Source: a virus. From it: 23,837 bases of DNA. The DNA lies in the IMG/VR virus record IMGVR_UViG_3300030098_002418, positions 1-23,837 of that record. The stretch is one strand, 5' to 3'. Positions within the stretch are counted from its first letter, which is position 1, and every line of letters starts with the position of its first letter. Shown in pieces: positions 3,081 through 19,050 of this stretch. The notes beneath the pieces were generated by a model. That model saw only the letters and a program-made list of their open reading frames with translations. It did no database searches and was not told where the DNA came from. Both the position numbers and the translations under genes were made by a program.

Positions 3081-3269
3081 TTACCATTGCTTTACTTCAT
3101 TATACACTTCATCGAATTGTTCTATCATTTCAGGTCGTAGATTTTCCTTCCAATCACCTTGCATAAAACTTTTAGTTGTTTTATACATTTCACCCATGAT
3201 TCTCATAAGTATTTTATTATCTAATACAAAGTAAATTGCATTATCACTTTTATAAATTCCGTTTTTCAT
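3081..3269 (-). CDS. 62-aa hypothetical protein
   Basis: A soluble protein beginning MKNGIYKSDNAIYFVLDNKI and ending in an acidic helix (EQFDEVYNEVKQW). Only one base separates it from the genes on each side, so it belongs to the same transcription unit running down from the motif at 3831-3866. No motif was recognised. Confidence 0.65.
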   Translation of the reverse strand: MKNGIYKSDNAIYFVLDNKILMRIMGEMYKTTKSFMQGDWKENLRPEMIEQFDEVYNEVKQW

Positions 3270-3830: not shown

Positions 3831-3866
3831 TTATATTATCCTTCTATTGTCGTATTTAATTTGTAA
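3831..3866 (-). promoter_or_regulatory. Early promoter-like motif, copy A
   Basis: One of seven copies of a 36-base element. On the coding (minus) strand the consensus is TTACAAA, then TAAATACG, 9 variable bases, then GGATAATATAA. This copy reads TTACAAATTAAATACG and GGATAATATAA. It lies 20 bases upstream of the gene starting at 3811. TAATAT resembles a -10 element; the upstream block is unlike a standard -35 or the usual Bacteroidota promoter boxes. Confidence 0.65.
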
Positions 3867-3870
3867 ATAA

Positions 3871-3946
3871 ACGAAGGTGGGATGTTTGAGTTAATGACCT
3901 ACTATCTTGTAGATTTACGGGTTAACTTCCAATCCCACTCCTTCGT
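3871..3946 (-). ncRNA. Structured RNA, cloverleaf-like with closed acceptor stem
   Basis: The ends pair exactly as ACGAAGG with CCTTCGT, and the pairing continues as TGGGAT with ATCCCA after a 2-nt bulge. Inside are a 6-bp helix (AGTTAA/TTAACT) and a CTAC-AAGATA-GTAG hairpin, written on the minus strand. As a tRNA read on the minus strand it has a good acceptor stem, a D arm (TGGG, a 12-nt loop with GG, CCCG) and an anticodon-like hairpin. However, that loop is 6 nt, and no T stem can form. It lies between the stop of 3951-4166 and motif A, so it could also act as a terminator or mRNA-stabilising structure. Confidence 0.45.
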
Positions 3947-3950
3947 ATAT

Positions 3951-4166
3951 TTAACACAACATTGTACCATAACCTCTACGTTGAGTCATCTTAGCTATTT
4001 TTGCTGCATCACTTTGTGACATTATCTGTATAGAGTTACCAGTCTTGTGATTAATAAGAGGTGCACAACCATACTGTTCTACAGTTGAACAATTAACACA
4101 AGTTTTATAACCAAGATTGACTCTGACGTTAGGTATTATACTTCCACATTTACAATTCATATTCAT
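3951..4166 (-). CDS. Small Cys-rich (putative zinc-binding) protein
   Basis: A 71-aa protein with a possible zinc site made of C5-x-C7 and C23-x2-C26 (KCG... and CVNCS), followed by a polar tail ending GYGTMLC. Such knuckles often bind nucleic acid or a host protein. It may start at the second methionine (position 4160), since only 8 bases separate the first ATG from the promoter-like motif at 4174-4209; with the first ATG the mRNA would be nearly leaderless. It is transcribed alone, with a structured RNA after its stop. Confidence 0.75.
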   Translation of the reverse strand: MNMNCKCGSIIPNVRVNLGYKTCVNCSTVEQYGCAPLINHKTGNSIQIMSQSDAAKIAKMTQRRGYGTMLC

Positions 4167-4173
4167 TATTTAT

Positions 4174-4209
4174 ATATATTATCCATTAGTAATCGTATTT
4201 TGTTTGTAA
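4174..4209 (-). promoter_or_regulatory. Early promoter-like motif, copy B
   Basis: Coding-strand blocks are TTACAAA, AATACG, 9 variable bases and GGATAATATAT, with the same 36-base spacing as the other copies. It sits right upstream of the Cys-rich protein gene at 3951-4166 and immediately after the stop of 4211-4468. Confidence 0.65.
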
Positions 4210-4210
4210 T

Positions 4211-4468
4211 CTAATCAAGACTAGGTTCTCTACCATTACTTATATCTATATCTATACAATTCTTTATAGCTTTTTCCATTGGAGTTATTTCACGTTTGGT
4301 TTCATTTTCCCATATTTCTTTAGCTCTAAGTTCTATCATTTCATAACTATTAGGACCTGTAAGAGTCTCTGAATAACCTAAATGATGTTCTTGACCGAAA
4401 CTATCTATCACATGGATATTATAGTGTGTATTTCCTTGGTATTTGTCTATTATTATTCTTCTTGCCAT
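4211..4468 (-). CDS. 85-aa hypothetical protein
   Basis: I chose the internal ATG at 4468 (product MARRIIIDKYQGNTHYNIHV). An upstream in-frame ATG at 4489 would overlap the preceding lipoprotein gene by 20 bases, whereas this start leaves the usual one-base gap and the local AATATG context. The product begins with a beta-hairpin-like segment and ends in an acidic tail. It is the last gene of the run that starts at 5601. No function recognised. Confidence 0.7.
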   Translation of the reverse strand: MARRIIIDKYQGNTHYNIHVIDSFGQEHHLGYSETLTGPNSYEMIELRAKEIWENETKREITPMEKAIKNCIDIDISNGREPSLD

Positions 4469-4469
4469 A

Positions 4470-4631
4470 TTATTTTTTATAAAATTCATTTATCAACGAG
4501 TCACGTTCGTAACTATAATCTATATATAGTTTGTCTAATTTATAGTTTATTTCTATTTGTCTTTGTGTTAATTGATTTACTCCACAAGATACAGTTGATA
4601 AAACTACTATTATCATTATTATTTTCTTCAT
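4470..4631 (-). CDS. Small putative lipoprotein
   Basis: ATG at 4631 gives 53 residues. The N-terminus is a classical lipoprotein signal: MKK, a hydrophobic core IIMIIVVLS, then TVSC-G with the acylated Cys at about residue 17. The mature part is about 37 polar residues (GVNQLTQRQIEINYKLDKLY...), probably one helix. No Bacteroidota surface-export signal (acidic run after Cys) is seen, so periplasmic-side anchoring is inferred. Upstream in-frame ATGs would overlap the previous gene and lose the signal sequence. It could be an outer-membrane spanin subunit, but its location among early genes favours superinfection exclusion or envelope modification. Confidence 0.65.
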   Translation of the reverse strand: MKKIIMIIVVLSTVSCGVNQLTQRQIEINYKLDKLYIDYSYERDSLINEFYKK

Positions 4632-4632
4632 A

Positions 4633-4911
4633 TTATTTATCTTTTCTATGGTTATGACATAATCCACTTTTGTCTTTAGTTCTACTTTTACACGGAGTAT
4701 TTTTCTTAGTAGTTCCACTACATATTACAGTTTCACCTTTATTTTTATCTTTACTCACGTGGTTTGGGTCATGGTTATGACATAGACTATTGTCTTTTTT
4801 AGTAATGTTCTTACATTGAGTATTACTTTTTGTCTTACCTTTACACTGTGTTTGACTAAATCCTACTACAGACACACACATCATTCCTATTATTATACTT
4901 TTCTTTAACAT
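4633..4911 (-). CDS. Secreted Cys/His repeat protein
   Basis: A 92-aa protein. Residues 1-20 are a signal peptide (MLKKSIIIGMMCVSVVGFSQ), probably cleaved after Ser/Gln as in many flavobacterial secreted proteins. Two copies of a Cys/His unit follow, at residues 22-47 and 63-88, spaced C-x9-C-x10-CHNH and exactly 41 residues apart. Similar QCxxxTKxxxxC...C-x-H motifs occur in small Bacteroidota and phage proteins (I recall a DUF5763-type family, not checked). Metal binding in the periplasm, or disulfides, is likely. It lies between two lipoprotein genes. Confidence 0.75.
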   Translation of the reverse strand: MLKKSIIIGMMCVSVVGFSQTQCKGKTKSNTQCKNITKKDNSLCHNHDPNHVSKDKNKGETVICSGTTKKNTPCKSRTKDKSGLCHNHRKDK

Positions 4912-4924
4912 AATTTACTTATTT

Positions 4925-5035
4925 TTAATAGAATGAAGGACAGTTTGTTTGAACTGTAGTTTGTTGAACACTTCCACAAGATGAAAATCCTACTATCATT
5001 CCTATTATTACTGTTATTATTACTATCTTTTTCAT
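4925..5035 (-). CDS. 36-aa putative lipoprotein
   Basis: ATG at 5035, TAA at 4925-4927. It reads as a complete miniature lipoprotein: MKK, a long hydrophobic core (IVIITVIIGMIVGF), a lipobox-like SSC-G at Cys20, and a mature tail of only about 17 residues (CGSVQQTTVQTNCPSFY) with a second Cys. It sits four bases before the next lipoprotein gene and shares its design. Its role is probably in the host envelope; specific function unknown. Confidence 0.65.
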   Translation of the reverse strand: MKKIVIITVIIGMIVGFSSCGSVQQTTVQTNCPSFY

Positions 5036-5039
5036 ATTC

Positions 5040-5204
5040 TTAGTATTGAGGGTGAGAACTAATTAAACCTCCACAAGTTTTCTTCGCTGGATATCCAGTT
5101 CCTACATGAACATAACTTGTTCCACCACAACTCATCATCATTAGTCCTATGACTAAAGATAACCACATTACTACAAATACATTTCTACTTTTTCTATCAC
5201 TCAT
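5040..5204 (-). CDS. 54-aa putative lipoprotein
   Basis: ATG at 5204, TAA at 5040-5042. A charged N-terminus (MSDRKSRN) precedes a hydrophobic segment (VFVVMWLSLVIGLMMM), then SC-GG with Cys26 as a candidate acylation site, and a Gly/Tyr-rich tail with another Cys. Alternatively it stays as an uncleaved membrane protein. It is the first of the four consecutive exported proteins read after 5365-5601. Confidence 0.6.
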   Translation of the reverse strand: MSDRKSRNVFVVMWLSLVIGLMMMSCGGTSYVHVGTGYPAKKTCGGLISSHPQY

Positions 5205-5222
5205 AATTTTATTTTTATTTAA

Positions 5223-5300
5223 TTAATATTTAGTTGTTCCATTTTTCTTTATAAGTTTCTCTATCCACTTATCAAAGTCTTTTAATTCTTTTTCTTTCAT
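5223..5300 (-). CDS. 25-aa charged miniprotein, tentative
   Basis: ATG at 5300, TAA at 5223-5225, giving MKEKELKDFDKWIEKLIKKN and five more residues. It would form one amphipathic, highly charged helix. It fills an otherwise empty gap between the 54-aa lipoprotein and the gene at 5365-5601, in the same direction. It is too short to be sure that it is translated. Confidence 0.35.
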   Translation of the reverse strand: MKEKELKDFDKWIEKLIKKNGTTKY

Positions 5301-5319
5301 AGTTTCTATTTGTTATAGA

Positions 5320-5335
5320 CGAAGATATTACTTCG
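5320..5335 (-). other. Small hairpin between genes
   Basis: CGAAG-ATATTA-CTTCG forms a perfect 5-bp hairpin in the 64-base gap 5301-5364, downstream of the stop of 5365-5601. TAGACGAA and a nearby TTCGACTA extend the symmetry imperfectly. There is no clear U-run on the minus strand, so it is more likely an mRNA processing or attenuation hairpin than a strong terminator. Confidence 0.3.
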
Positions 5336-5364
5336 TTTCGACTATTAAAGTCTCATCAGTATAA

Positions 5365-5601
5365 CTATACTAATTCTTTTCCTCTACATACCATCGGAAT
5401 GTTATTAGTTGCAGTATATGACTTATATTTTTCCCAACACGGTAGAGAGTTAAGAGTTTCTTTCATAATTTCAAACACTTTATCGTGGTTGTAAGTTATT
5501 TCATCACCTTTTTTATTAGTAAAAGTTATAATTTGATTTTTACCGATTAAGGATTTTCTTACTACGAATCTCTTCGATTTCATTACATTGTTCTCGCTCA
5601 T
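5365..5601 (-). CDS. Hypothetical protein, RKSLIGKN family, copy 1
   Basis: A 78-aa basic protein closely related to the product of 6631-6855. Shared blocks are KRFVxRKSLIGKNxIITFT, KKGxxITYNHDxV, then CxxKYKSYTxTNNIPxxCR. The first half is probably a small beta-rich domain, and two conserved Cys may pair or bind metal. The paralogous copies about 1.2 kb apart, each behind a copy of the same 36-bp motif, show a local duplication. The start follows a 59-base leader after that motif. No known family was recognised; a small regulator or host-takeover protein is a guess. Confidence 0.8.
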   Translation of the reverse strand: MSENNVMKSKRFVVRKSLIGKNQIITFTNKKGDEITYNHDKVFEIMKETLNSLPCWEKYKSYTATNNIPMVCRGKELV

Positions 5602-5660
5602 AATTTTTAATTTTTTAAGTTTATATTTATTTTATTTATTCGTTTCATTTCGTTATTCAG

Positions 5661-5696
5661 TTATATTATCCAAATTAGTTTGTATTTAATTTGTAT
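5661..5696 (-). promoter_or_regulatory. Early promoter-like motif, copy C
   Basis: Coding-strand blocks are ATACAAATTAAATACA, 9 variable bases, then GGATAATATAA; spacing is identical to the other copies, with ATACAAA and AATACA as variants. It precedes the gene at 5365-5601 and probably also serves the lipoprotein run down to 4211, since no other copy lies in between. Confidence 0.6.
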
Positions 5697-5700
5697 TTTA

Positions 5701-5949
5701 TTATCTTTTATTTGTATAAGAATAATCTTTATGAAATACTAGAGTATCTTTAAATTTTTGAAGATTAAAGTATTGATTATGTTCTTTATGGTCGTCAAGA
5801 CTTATATAACAATAACCTTTTAGATTAAAGAAGTTTGTATTATACTTATTAAACCATTTTGGTAATTGATGTAATTGGTATGGTAAATATATTTTATTAT
5901 TTAATTTTAGAATATTTAATTGATTAAATTTTAATTTTTTAGAGTGCAT
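5701..5949 (-). CDS. 82-aa Asn/Lys-rich hypothetical protein
   Basis: An extremely AT-rich gene encoding many Asn, Lys, Tyr and Phe (LPKWFNKYNTNFFNLKGYCY). There is no signal peptide or membrane helix. It is a single-gene unit with its own copy of the 36-bp motif (5983-6018) and 33 bases of leader. Base composition is more extreme than in the late genes. Function unknown. Confidence 0.65.
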   Translation of the reverse strand: MHSKKLKFNQLNILKLNNKIYLPYQLHQLPKWFNKYNTNFFNLKGYCYISLDDHKEHNQYFNLQKFKDTLVFHKDYSYTNKR

Positions 5950-5982
5950 AATTTTATATTTTTATATTTTTATTTCTTATAC

Positions 5983-6018
5983 TTATATTATCCAACTGAG
6001 TTCGTATTTAGTTTGTAA
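5983..6018 (-). promoter_or_regulatory. Early promoter-like motif, copy D
   Basis: Coding-strand blocks are TTACAAACTAAATACG, 9 variable bases, then GGATAATATAA, a perfect match to the consensus. It directly follows the stop of 6019-6201 and lies 33 bases upstream of the ATG at 5949. Confidence 0.7.
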
Positions 6019-6201
6019 TTAATTATTTAAGTTAATTTCAATTATAAATGTTTGGAATAATTTAGTATTTGATTTTGTAATATTATAATTTAATTCTAAG
6101 TATTCAATTTGATTTGAAGTATTTGGAATAATTATAAATTTATTATTATTATTTTTATAAGTTATTTTATTTGTTTTTAAGTATTTAATTAAGTTTTTCA
6201 T
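6019..6201 (-). CDS. 60-aa Asn-rich hypothetical protein
   Basis: A very AT-rich small gene (MKNLIKYLKTNKITYKNNNN). A stretch NNKFIIIPNTSN resembles DNKFIIFEYTSN in the next upstream gene (6327-6563), with the same order of a short helix and then a strand; this may be distant kinship or just composition. It is a single-gene unit, only 10 bases downstream of its promoter-like motif. Confidence 0.55.
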   Translation of the reverse strand: MKNLIKYLKTNKITYKNNNNKFIIIPNTSNQIEYLELNYNITKSNTKLFQTFIIEINLNN

Positions 6202-6211
6202 ATTTTCTTTA

Positions 6212-6247
6212 TTATATTATCCAAGTTGACTCGTATTTAGTTTGTAA
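6212..6247 (-). promoter_or_regulatory. Early promoter-like motif, copy E
   Basis: Coding-strand blocks are TTACAAACTAAATACG, 9 variable bases, then GGATAATATAA, a perfect consensus match. It ends only 10 bases before the ATG at 6201, so a transcript starting about 7 bases after TAATAT would have almost no leader. Confidence 0.7.
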
Positions 6248-6305
6248 AAGTATATAATTTGTTTAGTTGATAAATTACATTGACTAGTATAGGTCTGTGA
6301 CTCTT

Positions 6306-6324
6306 TGTCATTGACATTTTGTCA
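6306..6324. other. Cluster of alternating TGTCA/TGACA inverted repeats
   Basis: The run TGTCA-T-TGACA-TTT-TGTCA gives two interleaved perfect inverted repeats in the 79-base gap after the stop of 6327-6563. An 8-base direct repeat TTTGTCAT occurs at 6304 and 6318. It could be an operator or an RNA hairpin at the 3' end of the upstream transcript. Confidence 0.3.
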
Positions 6325-6326
6325 TA

Positions 6327-6563
6327 TTAAATTATGATAAATTCTAAGTCTAATTCATCTTCGAGTCTAATAAAGTCTATATTGTTATCTTTTAATAGTT
6401 GAGAACATTTGTTTATATTAGAAGTGTATTCGAATATGATAAATTTATTATCTTTGAAGTCATTCATGTTTAAGTTATTCTCGTCGAAGAAGTTTTCTGA
6501 ATCAGTTATATAATGAATTTCAGAATGATTTTTTAAGATTGAATTTAATTTGTTGTAAGTCAT
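6327..6563 (-). CDS. 78-aa acidic hypothetical protein
   Basis: An acidic, Asn-rich protein (MTYNKLNSILKNHSEIHYIT, then DSENFFDENNLNMNDFKD). The order of helix, strand, helix, strand suggests a small alpha/beta or ferredoxin-like fold ending in hydrophobic LEFIII. It is a single-gene unit with its own motif copy (6596-6631). No family was recognised. Confidence 0.6.
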   Translation of the reverse strand: MTYNKLNSILKNHSEIHYITDSENFFDENNLNMNDFKDNKFIIFEYTSNINKCSQLLKDNNIDFIRLEDELDLEFIII

Positions 6564-6595
6564 ATTTATTTATTTAATTATTATTATTTCTATAT

Positions 6596-6631
6596 ATATA
6601 TTATCCATTAATAGTCGTATTGACTTTGTAT
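6596..6631 (-). promoter_or_regulatory. Early promoter-like motif, copy F
   Basis: Coding-strand blocks are ATACAAAGTCAATACG, 9 variable bases, then GGATAATATAT. It overlaps the last base of the stop codon of 6631-6855 and lies 32 bases upstream of the ATG at 6563. Confidence 0.6.
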
Positions 6632-6855
6632 TATCTACAGAATGTTGGAATGTTATTAGTATTCGTGTAAGACTTATACTTCTTGAAACAGTTCATTGAA
6701 TCGAATCTATCTTTGTTTCTGTTATATACTTCATCATGATTGTATGTAATAGTCTTACCTTTCTTAGTAGTGAATGTGATGATCATGTTCTTTCCAATTA
6801 GAGATTTTCTGATTACAAATCTTTTAGTAGTTAGTTTGTTGTTTGTGTTTGACAT
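6631..6855 (-). CDS. Hypothetical protein, RKSLIGKN family, copy 2
   Basis: A 74-aa paralogue of 5365-5601 with the same blocks (KRFVIRKSLIGKN, ITYNHDEV, KYKSYTNTNNIP, CR). It is the first gene left of the divergent control region, a position where phages usually place their earliest or most strongly expressed genes. The N-terminal ten residues and the helix around 45-55 are the variable parts. Function unknown. Confidence 0.8.
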   Translation of the reverse strand: MSNTNNKLTTKRFVIRKSLIGKNMIITFTTKKGKTITYNHDEVYNRNKDRFDSMNCFKKYKSYTNTNNIPTFCR

Positions 6856-6898
6856 AGTAATTTAATTTATTTAGTTAGTTATTATAGTTATTATTCAA

Positions 6899-6934
6899 TT
6901 ATATTATCCATACATAGTAGTATTAAAGTTGTAA
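6899..6934 (-). promoter_or_regulatory. Early promoter-like motif, copy G
   Basis: Coding-strand blocks are TTACAAC, AATACT, 9 variable bases, then GGATAATATAA. It is the most divergent copy in the upstream half but keeps identical spacing. It lies 43 bases upstream of the ATG at 6855 and marks the left edge of the intergenic control region. Confidence 0.55.
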
Positions 6935-7259
6935 GATGTAGAGGAAAAGGTGAAATAATTCTAGACAGAGATGAATTGAGATGAGGAAGAGGAAACGAAA
7001 GAGGAATAGAGAGGGGAGGAGGGATATATAACGGAATTTATATATATGATGGGGAGGGCCCATTTTAGATTGGACTTTTTATATACGGAAAGGGGAGGGA
7101 AGGGGAGGAGCAACATCCCACCCCAATATTTATAACAACTTTTTTTTGTGACATAAGCCTATTAAGAAGAATATAGTAACTAGCTAGTGTCACACTTTAT
7201 GTAAATAATATTTTTTCTATGTAATTATTAGTGTAACTAATAACGCAAAACTAGGAATT
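6935..7259. promoter_or_regulatory. Divergent control region with polypurine tract and palindromes
   Basis: This non-coding stretch separates the leftward and rightward blocks. From 6936 to 7110 the plus strand is strongly purine-rich, with G-runs at 7011-7023, 7051-7058 and 7092-7110 in an otherwise AT-rich genome. It holds ATATATAA/TTATATAT (7024-7045), two ACGGAA repeats after AT-runs (7026-7036, 7081-7090), the palindrome ACTAGCTAGT (7179-7188), TGTGACA/TGTCACA (7147-7194) and TTATTAGT-GTA-ACTAATAA (7225-7243). It should contain the late promoter and its operators, and possibly an origin. No standard promoter could be assigned with confidence. Confidence 0.6.
7225..7243 (+). promoter_or_regulatory. 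Operator-like palindrome before first late gene
   Basis: TTATTAGT and ACTAATAA form a perfect 8-bp inverted repeat around GTA, ending 16 bases before the ATG at 7260. Position and symmetry fit a dimeric regulator site or a leader hairpin controlling the late block. Confidence 0.4.
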
Positions 7260-7499
7260 ATGGGATATAGACCATTCAAGATGAAAGGATTTAGTCCTTT
7301 TACGCGAACAGAAGAAAAGCCAAAAATTGCATCTGACACTACTGTAAGTAGAGATGCTCGTGTAAGAATGTCTAATCCCCCACAGTACGAGGTAAAAATA
7401 GATGGTAAAACCGCGTGGTTATCTGAAAAAGATTACAAAGCTTGGCATAAAAGAACTTATCCTAAGACGACTAATAAACTTATTAAAAGAGGAAGTTAA
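7260..7499 (+). CDS. First late protein, 79 aa, FKMKG motif
   Basis: A basic protein. Its N-terminus, MGYRPFKMKGFSPF, closely matches the start of the product of 13979-14362 (MGYKMKGFSGF) and related motifs in other late proteins here. The middle is disordered (TEEKPKIASDTTVSRDAR). The C-terminal 40 residues (YEVKIDGKTAWLSEKDYKAW) look like a small folded unit. It starts the rightward block, 5 bases before the next gene. A virion or morphogenesis role is inferred from position only. Confidence 0.75.
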   Translation: MGYRPFKMKGFSPFTRTEEKPKIASDTTVSRDARVRMSNPPQYEVKIDGKTAWLSEKDYKAWHKRTYPKTTNKLIKRGS

Positions 7500-16626: not shown

Positions 16627-16834
16627 GGTTGCTAAAGAACCGATTGTAGATTCAGACGACGATATATCAGCAGATAGATTAAAGAATGCCGCGGCTACTA
16701 AAAAACTAGCTATATTTGACGCATTTGAAATACTTACAAGAATCCAAGAAGAAGAAAACTTGCTTGAGGGCAAGGCACCTGAAGAGGGAAAGAAAACGGT
16801 CTTTAAAGGATTCGCAGAAGGTAGATCTAAGTAA
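16559..16834 (+). CDS. Probable terminase small subunit
   Basis: A 91-aa, mostly helical protein (NIIQAGQKAVEELIKVAKEP, RLKNAAATKKLAIFDAFEIL) ending in a basic FKGFAEGRSK. It lies directly before the large terminase and overlaps it by one base (TAATG), the usual place for TerS, which recognises phage DNA and loads it on the motor. No clear helix-turn-helix is seen, so the call rests on position, size and helicity. It begins 68 bases inside the preceding gene, in another frame. Confidence 0.6.
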   Translation: MNTKETKKNIIQAGQKAVEELIKVAKEPIVDSDDDISADRLKNAAATKKLAIFDAFEILTRIQEEENLLEGKAPEEGKKTVFKGFAEGRSK

Positions 16835-19050
16835 TGTACAAGCAAAGTTTAGTTAAAACTGTAGAACCTATTAAAAGAACTACGATCACTAGAATGAATC
16901 GTGGTAAAAAGTGGAAATACGGTTATAATAAAGAACACGATTTAATTGTGTTGTCACACAATGGAATTATAGGTGAAATTATAGAGATTCAAAATTTAAT
17001 TATAGCGCTACCGAAACCACCTAAAGAAGTATATAAACATCCAAAGAATAAGTGGGTTAAGCAGGAATATCCTAAAGAGCTCGAAAGGATTAAAAACATA
17101 TTCGATTGGAGGGGTTATCCGGAAAACAATAAAGAAAAATGGTACGATTATATAGACGAGGAATTTAAACGTCGAGAAGAGGGTTTCTGGTTTATGAATA
17201 ATGGTAAACCAACCTGGATAACCGGTACGCACTATATGTATTTACAATGGAGTAAGATTGACGTTGGGGCTCCAGATTATAGAGAAGCTAATAGACTGTT
17301 TTATATATTCTGGGAAGCGTGTAAGGCAGATAAAAGATGTTACGGAATGTGTTACCTTAAAAATCGTCGATCTGGATTTTCTTTTATGTCATCAGCTGAA
17401 ACAGTTAATTTAGCCACAATATCAAGTGATAGTAGATATGGTATATTATCAAAAACAGGTGCAGATGCGAAAAAAATGTTTACAGATAAGGTCGTTCCTA
17501 TCTCTATTAATTATCCGTTCTTTTTTAAACCTATACAAGATGGAATGGATCGTCCAAAATCCGAGTTGGCTTATCGTGTTCCCGCTAGTAAGTTTACGAG
17601 AAAGAAAATTACAGCGAACGAACAGCTCGAAGATATCAAAGGGTTAGATACAACTATTGATTGGAAAAACACTGGAGATAATAGTTATGATGGGGAAAAA
17701 TTAAGTTTATTAGTTCATGACGAAAGTGGTAAGTGGGAAAGGCCAGACAATATATTAAACAACTGGAGAGTCACGAAAACGTGTTTAAGATTAGGTAGTA
17801 GAATAGTAGGAAAATGTATGATGGGTTCAACATCAAACGCCCTTGACAAAGGAGGTGATAACTTTAAAAAACTATACAATGCATCAGACGTTACTTCAAG
17901 AAATAGAAATGGACAGACAAAATCTGGTTTATATTCTTTGTTTATCCCAATGGAATGGAACTACGAAGGATTTATTGATGAATACGGATATCCAGTATTC
18001 AATAATCCAGACGATGATGTACTCGGACCAGATGGTGAATTAATAGATTACGGAATAATAGAACACTGGGAAAACGAAGCTGAAGGATTAAAACAAGACC
18101 ATGATGCCCTTAATGAGTTCTATAGACAATTTCCAAGAACTACAGAACATGCATTTAGAGATGAAGCTAAAAATAGTATATTTAACTTAGTAAAAATATA
18201 CGAACAGATAGATTACAACGAAGGTGTAGGTAATTCTTCAGTAATATCTAGAGGTAATTTTCAGTGGGTTAATGGAGTTAAAGACACGCAGGTAATATTT
18301 TATCCTGATCCAAAAGGAAGATTTAAGGTAAGTTGGTTTCCACCATCTCACATGCAGAATAAAGTTGTTGTCAAGAATGGCATAAGATATCCTGCTAATG
18401 AACACATGGGCGCTTTTGGTTGTGATAGTTACGATATATCAGGGACGGTTGATGGTAAGGGATCTAACGGGGCTTTACATGGATTGACAAAGTTTTCAAT
18501 GGAAGATTGCCCTCCTAATCATTTCTTCTTAGAATATATAGCTAGACCACAAACGGCTGAGATATTTTTTGAAGATGTTTTAATGGCATTAGTATTTTAT
18601 GGAATGCCACTGTTATGTGAGAATAACAAACCTAGATTGTTATATCACTTAAGAAGAAGAGGATACAGGGGATATTCTATGAATAGACCTGATAAAGTTT
18701 GGAACAAATTATCTGTAGCAGAAAAAGAAATAGGTGGTATACCAAACTCTAGTGAAGATATAAAACAAGCTCACGCGGCGGCTATTGAAATGTATATACA
18801 GCAACACGTGGGTCATTTACAAGATGGTGTTTATGGAAATATATATTTCAACGAGACGTTAAACGATTGGAGTAGATTCGATATAACAAAAAGAACAAAG
18901 CATGATGCGACTATAAGTTCTGGATTAGCAATAATGGCTTGTAACAGACATCTTTATAGACCTAATGCAAATATAGAGAAACCAAAATTGAATATAAGTA
19001 TTGCTAAATATTCCAACAAAGGTAGTACTTCAAAGATAATAAAGAATTAA
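16834..19050 (+). CDS. terL: Terminase large subunit
   Basis: 738 aa, the DNA-packaging motor. The ATPase domain has a deviant Walker A (LKNRRSGFSFMSS, 175-187), Walker B LLVHDE (292-297) with catalytic Glu297, and coupling motif GSTSN (331-335). The nuclease (RNase H-like) domain starts with GAFGCDSYDIS, where D531 and/or D534 would bind metal. It moves the genome into the prohead through the portal and cuts it. A long N-terminal region (1-165) precedes the ATPase, making it larger than typical TerL and like those of crAss-like phages. The portal gene follows after one base. Confidence 0.92.
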   Translation: MYKQSLVKTVEPIKRTTITRMNRGKKWKYGYNKEHDLIVLSHNGIIGEIIEIQNLIIALPKPPKEVYKHPKNKWVKQEYPKELERIKNIFDWRGYPENNKEKWYDYIDEEFKRREEGFWFMNNGKPTWITGTHYMYLQWSKIDVGAPDYREANRLFYIFWEACKADKRCYGMCYLKNRRSGFSFMSSAETVNLATISSDSRYGILSKTGADAKKMFTDKVVPISINYPFFFKPIQDGMDRPKSELAYRVPASKFTRKKITANEQLEDIKGLDTTIDWKNTGDNSYDGEKLSLLVHDESGKWERPDNILNNWRVTKTCLRLGSRIVGKCMMGSTSNALDKGGDNFKKLYNASDVTSRNRNGQTKSGLYSLFIPMEWNYEGFIDEYGYPVFNNPDDDVLGPDGELIDYGIIEHWENEAEGLKQDHDALNEFYRQFPRTTEHAFRDEAKNSIFNLVKIYEQIDYNEGVGNSSVISRGNFQWVNGVKDTQVIFYPDPKGRFKVSWFPPSHMQNKVVVKNGIRYPANEHMGAFGCDSYDISGTVDGKGSNGALHGLTKFSMEDCPPNHFFLEYIARPQTAEIFFEDVLMALVFYGMPLLCENNKPRLLYHLRRRGYRGYSMNRPDKVWNKLSVAEKEIGGIPNSSEDIKQAHAAAIEMYIQQHVGHLQDGVYGNIYFNETLNDWSRFDITKRTKHDATISSGLAIMACNRHLYRPNANIEKPKLNISIAKYSNKGSTSKIIKN

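Follow-up and report, generated by a model that had tools for sequence, protein, structure and literature searches.

The question raised by this locus is what a long motif, repeated seven times ahead of the leftward genes of a phage, does there, and which protein reads it. The DNA analysed, hereafter the window, comprises the 23,837 nucleotides of IMG/VR record IMGVR_UViG_3300030098_002418 and represents part of the genome of a marine tailed phage, a relative of Elemovirus. Its terminase large subunit shares 64% identity with that of phage MW202828 and 46% with those of the Elemovirus phages of Flavobacterium. The window also encodes GroEL and GroES, and its early and late blocks lie on opposite strands, the terms "early" and "late" being based on gene content and analogy, not on timing data. 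The two blocks are separated by a non-coding region (6935-7140) that is 69% purine on the plus strand, with 31% G and 10% C, and contains GGGCCC. The features of the window are collected in Table 1.

Table 1. Features of the window, with predicted start sites and the ORFs that follow the motif copies.
Feature	Position	Strand	Predicted start site	Downstream ORF	Remarks
Promoter-like motif	3831..3866	-	3828	3811-3509	GATAAT at 3840-3835
Promoter-like motif	4174..4209	-	4171	4166-3951	
Promoter-like motif	5661..5696	-	5658	5601-5365	ORF followed by a gene run
Promoter-like motif	5983..6018	-	5980	5949-5701	Top score in the window, 52 bits
Promoter-like motif	6212..6247	-	6209	6201-6019	
Promoter-like motif	6596..6631	-	6593	6563-6327	
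Promoter-like motif	6899..6934	-	6896	6855-6631	Closest to the early/late boundary; weakest copy, 32 bits
Dyad, TGTGACATAAGC - 24 nt - GCTAGTGTCACA	7147..7194	+			Before the late block; same element before the HTH-sigma operon in relatives
First ORF of rightward (late) block	7260..7499	+			No motif copy in this block
Terminase large subunit	16834..19050	+			Places the phage; defines the late strand

All seven 36-base copies were recovered at the positions given in the initial annotation; every one lies on the minus strand, and their internal distances are constant. The sequence that they were said to share is somewhat less uniform: three copies match the literal consensus exactly, two differ from it at two positions and two at three, and the upstream box is slightly looser than "shared" implies (CAAAATACG at 4174, TAAATACA at 5661, TCAATACG at 6596 and TTTAATACT at 6899). 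With up to three mismatches allowed, the literal pattern matched seven times on the minus strand and not once on the plus strand, which bears out the reported absence from the rightward block, and the pattern read backward had no match in the window. A related pattern gave no match in 100 dinucleotide shuffles. Each copy does precede a gene, namely an ORF of 60-100 aa on the same strand, with its ATG 5-57 nt past the predicted start. The family of the ORF next to the early/late boundary (6855-6631) is present in all ten full genomes of related phages. A scoring matrix derived from 470 motif sites of other viral contigs gave the window copies 32 to 52 bits. In a scan of 868 kb of phage DNA with this matrix, which is not independent for those scanned genomes that overlap its training contigs, every site found scored above 25 bits, none fell between 10 and 25 bits on either strand, and the reversed control produced no site of 8 bits or more. 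The seven-copy motif is real, conserved, oriented and promoter-like.

The motif is widespread among related viruses, with at least 119 motif-bearing stretches in IMG/VR. It occurs in the early block of 40 of 40 related viral contigs, each selected for one exact motif match, at 2-13 copies per contig. A pattern search of these contigs, independent apart from that selection because the pattern came from the window alone, found 258 copies on one strand versus 4 on the other, with 2 control hits. The same terminase family is encoded by 39 of the 40 contigs (55-88% identity), and in all 39 the motif strand is opposite to the terminase strand. More than 600 stretches encode this terminase family, so the group is large. 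No significant match to the motif was found in cultured phages, and no report of it was found in the open-licence literature searched. In one genome (G029; L139 and L140), T replaces C at position 2 in 12 of 13 copies, where other genomes nearly always have C, a pattern of coordinated change across the putative promoters. A 64-kb contig in a Prochlorococcus single-cell genome (L376), otherwise different, carries a single full-strength motif at 3098-3130 before a homologue of one early gene, and promoter and gene appear to have moved together.

Analysis of 251 sites from 36 genomes, with positions counted from the A of ACAAA, revealed a conserved stretch, TTACAAACTAAATACGA, followed by seven nearly free bases and then TGGATAATATAWWTR. 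Position 37, 12 bases downstream of the G of GATAAT, is a purine in 251 of 251 sites, and this purine is also universal when the site-finding matrix ends at position 33 and so ignores it. Considering ORFs of at least 30 codons, the first ATG lies exactly at position 37 in 42 of the 251 sites and earlier in 9, four of them at position 35, where base composition often makes positions 35-37 read ATG. Across the ten full genomes and the window, the ATG is at position 37 in 23 of 94 sites and never earlier. The median distance to the ATG is 54.5 for sites versus 107 for positions drawn at random from the same spans; an ATG lies within 60 in 63% of sites versus 19% of random positions. The fixed purine and the ATG boundary therefore suggest a promoter whose start would be placed at position 37; such a boundary is expected if RNA starts there and many of the messages lack a leader. 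In F. psychrophilum, 5.5% of mRNAs are leaderless (PMC9723704), so the 17% at motif sites would be high.

With +1 at position 37, GATAAT falls at -12 to -7 and the second box TTACAAACTAAATACGA at -38 to -22. This arrangement is of the sigma-70 type, with A at -11, T at -7 and, about 7 nt further on, a purine start; TAATAT, which had been suggested as the -10 element, is not the best register. The motif is not palindromic and is strictly oriented toward genes, and its consensus contains no stem of 5 bp or more. A hairpin promoter was rejected on this count, the promoter of the N4 virion polymerase having a small hairpin upstream of the start. Measured against base composition, the motif holds about 40 bits, when about 14 bits would suffice to find seven sites in 65 kb. 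An information excess of such size is known for T7 promoters, and here it hints at a contact beyond the sigma factor and keeps a phage helix-turn-helix (HTH) protein, described below, in play. The promoter function of the motif is well supported by its sequence features.

Bacteroidota sigma-A reads TAnnTTTG at -12 to -5 (PMC6847099, PMC9723704), and the motif has GATAATAT there instead. The nearest named relatives, Elemovirus and MW202828, resemble the motif phages in terminase family, late gene order and GroEL/GroES, but they have TAnnTTTG host promoters and lack the motif, the sigma factor, the HTH protein and the dyad. Intergenic TAHHTTTG boxes near genes number 15 in elemoF and 11 in MW202828, compared with 2 in the window and 0-3 in each of ten motif genomes; in the motif clade they occur at or below chance, also in a stricter two-box search, with totals near the shuffle expectation. 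Host-type promoters for the early genes of this clade were rejected, as the boxes are not above chance. The comparison suggests that the clade dropped the host promoter code and uses promoters of its own in place of host sigma-A promoters. No Shine-Dalgarno sequences were found, which agrees with a Bacteroidota host.

In every full motif genome (10 of 10), the gene for a 206-aa HTH protein precedes that for a 250-aa sigma-70-family factor. In these relatives the sigma gene lies at the end of the early array, beyond the reach of the window fragment. The sigma factor was found in 34 of the 40 motif contigs; the six others are 48-62 kb long and may be incomplete. Among 33 MW202828-like and elemo-like contigs, 13 of them longer than 50 kb, none carries the sigma gene and none the motif. 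The family assignment is based on TIGR02937 (64.3 bits versus a cut-off of 42.9), on Pfam regions r2 (24.4 versus 24) and r4 (29.2 versus 24.1) for the protein of genome G017, and on PHROG 351. The best PDB match, and the nearest solved structure by sequence, is FliA (1rp3, E=1.8e-8), and a predicted model of moderate confidence matches the sigma chains of initiation complexes. The protein stays far under both the FliA and SigBFG subfamily cut-offs (for FliA/WhiG, TIGR02479 gave 55.9 bits versus 189.6). The HTH protein had no solved relative by fold, matching one unnamed viral model, and no significant match in cultured phages. Two genomes (G017, L129 and L132; G003, L145 and L148) carry two diverged HTH-sigma modules per contig, reflecting true duplication or mixed assembly. 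In G031 (L161-L164), frameshifts or stops break the terminase, sigma and HTH genes and are probably sequencing errors.

A phage-specific promoter for a modified host polymerase, one of the two options raised in the initial annotation, is the reading best supported by the start purine, the leaderless ATGs, the sigma-70-like placing of GATAAT, the loss of host-type promoters and the presence of a phage sigma-70-family factor in the same clade. The seven copies would be promoters of the phage early genes, with transcription starting at the conserved purine three bases past the 36-base motif, GATAAT serving as the -10 element and TTACAAACTAAATACGA as a second recognition box over the -35 region. 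The predicted reader is host core RNA polymerase carrying the phage sigma-70-family factor of about 250 aa, with FliA/SigBFG (group 3) character, and the first sigma would be supplied by virion carriage or basal transcription. We give a probability of roughly 0.5 to early promoters being read by host core polymerase with the phage sigma, and the odds that the sigma itself is the motif reader appear about even. The co-occurrence of sigma and motif may represent a single evolutionary event, because both are confined to one clade. Most motif copies lie upstream of the sigma gene, which itself follows a different element, the dyad, so the source of the first sigma is a gap in the sigma reading. 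The divergence of the motif showed no measurable co-variation with that of the sigma factor (partial Mantel r ~0), and for a sigma factor acting alone, conservation of AATACGA at -28 to -22 would be unusual.

SPO1 gp28 and T4 gp55 are phage-encoded sigma factors with their own promoter class. The motif phages are similar in combining, here by co-occurrence only, a phage sigma-70-family protein with a promoter class outside the repertoire of the host sigma. They differ in that the motif promoters would govern the early array, with the sigma gene in the same block behind a separate dyad, in a motif far longer than the SPO1 middle or T4 late boxes, and in a host phylum with a divergent sigma-A. 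The likeness to FliA/sigma-28 and SigB/F/G (group 3) lies in the protein, FliA being the nearest solved relative of the phage sigma. The FliA -10 consensus is GCCGATAA, and GATAA is common to it and the motif; compared with the full FliA promoter, TAAAGTTT-N11-GCCGATAA, the motif has ACAAACTAAATACGA instead of TAAAGTTT, its spacing differs, and only GATAA is shared.

The strongest alternative, which we consider plausible yet somewhat less probable, is that the promoter is read by another phage factor, either the HTH protein as an activator of host polymerase or a virion-delivered RNA polymerase such as those of crAss-like phage phi14:2 and coliphage N4. An activating HTH protein would bind the upstream box, and the sigma would serve later genes. 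The ratio of about 40 to about 14 bits resembles that of promoters dependent on a dedicated polymerase or on a pair of proteins, the motif array precedes the sigma gene, and the HTH protein is kept in 10 of 10 genomes, with motif divergence, in the upstream box, weakly following its own (r 0.31, p 0.002, one of many tests). The dyad at the start codon of the HTH protein is, however, its more natural target, and host-type promoters serve the sister phages, whose late gene order is the same. For a virion polymerase, a close parallel is phi14:2, which infects Bacteroidota, has its early and late blocks on opposite strands, relies on a virion polymerase to transcribe its early genes (review PMC10136315) and likewise lacks host-type boxes in the 50 kb examined. 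The motif matrix found no match in those 50 kb, and phi14:2 has DFDxD proteins, whereas the motif clade has a sigma factor and no recognisable polymerase. The DFDxD catalytic motif of the crAss-like virion RNA polymerase, and DxDxD more broadly, is not conserved in the ten full motif genomes. Their giant late protein (2300-3344 aa, e.g. L130:472-8643:-), encoded in the virion block, carries an HExxH and a C-terminal stretch of 650-870 aa, both conserved, and matches no polymerase family; a crAss-type virion polymerase was rejected on these grounds. The motif also lacks an N4-type hairpin, and a search for a T7-type polymerase gave no match, its control being silent too. A more far-reaching scenario, in which the clade abandoned host promoters and a virion-delivered sigma or an unrecognised polymerase reads the 40-bit two-box promoter to yield partly leaderless early mRNAs, is rather doubtful.

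That the motif is a dispersed operator of one phage regulator, with promoters elsewhere, was the other option raised initially and is improbable. It is repeated about once per transcription unit, long and two-boxed, and the early block of the sister phage MW202828 (MW202828.1; L008, L009; 43745-55154) carries, all within that block, 14 exact copies of an operator-like 16-bp perfect palindrome, GTGTCGTTAACGACAC, several shortly before a start codon and some inside genes. The asymmetry and strict orientation of the motif, the fixed purine and ATG pile-up at position 37 and the lack of host-type boxes near genes argue against this function. The dyad, of general form GTGACAnnAGCC - ~19 nt - AGGCTAnTGTCAC, is a better operator candidate. 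All ten full genomes have it at the start codon of the HTH-sigma operon, and some have a third copy within the early array; the HTH protein would be its natural binder, tying early to late expression.

If unmodified host polymerase read the motif with a sigma of the host, the onset of infection would be accounted for, and the true host's ECF or other sigma could differ from those of Flavobacterium used for comparison. This reading is highly improbable, as the motif fits no Flavobacterium sigma-A, sigma-54 or ECF pattern described (PMC9723704, PMC6847099), the sigma factors of F. psychrophilum are limited to sigma-A, sigma-54 and seven of the ECF type (PMC9723704), and 257 Gb of genomes from bacteria and archaea yielded just 7 matching stretches. 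Most of these are isolated matches or phage contigs, the multi-copy ones being phage contigs inside MAGs, apparently binned phage.

Marine Flavobacteriia have abundant phages whose early transcription has hardly been studied. For hundreds of uncultured genomes, the motif offers early promoters with predicted start bases, together with a candidate sigma factor. It indicates that the promoter code was switched between sister groups of phages, and Bacteroidota genetics could gain from this system a sigma factor and promoter that work as an orthogonal pair.
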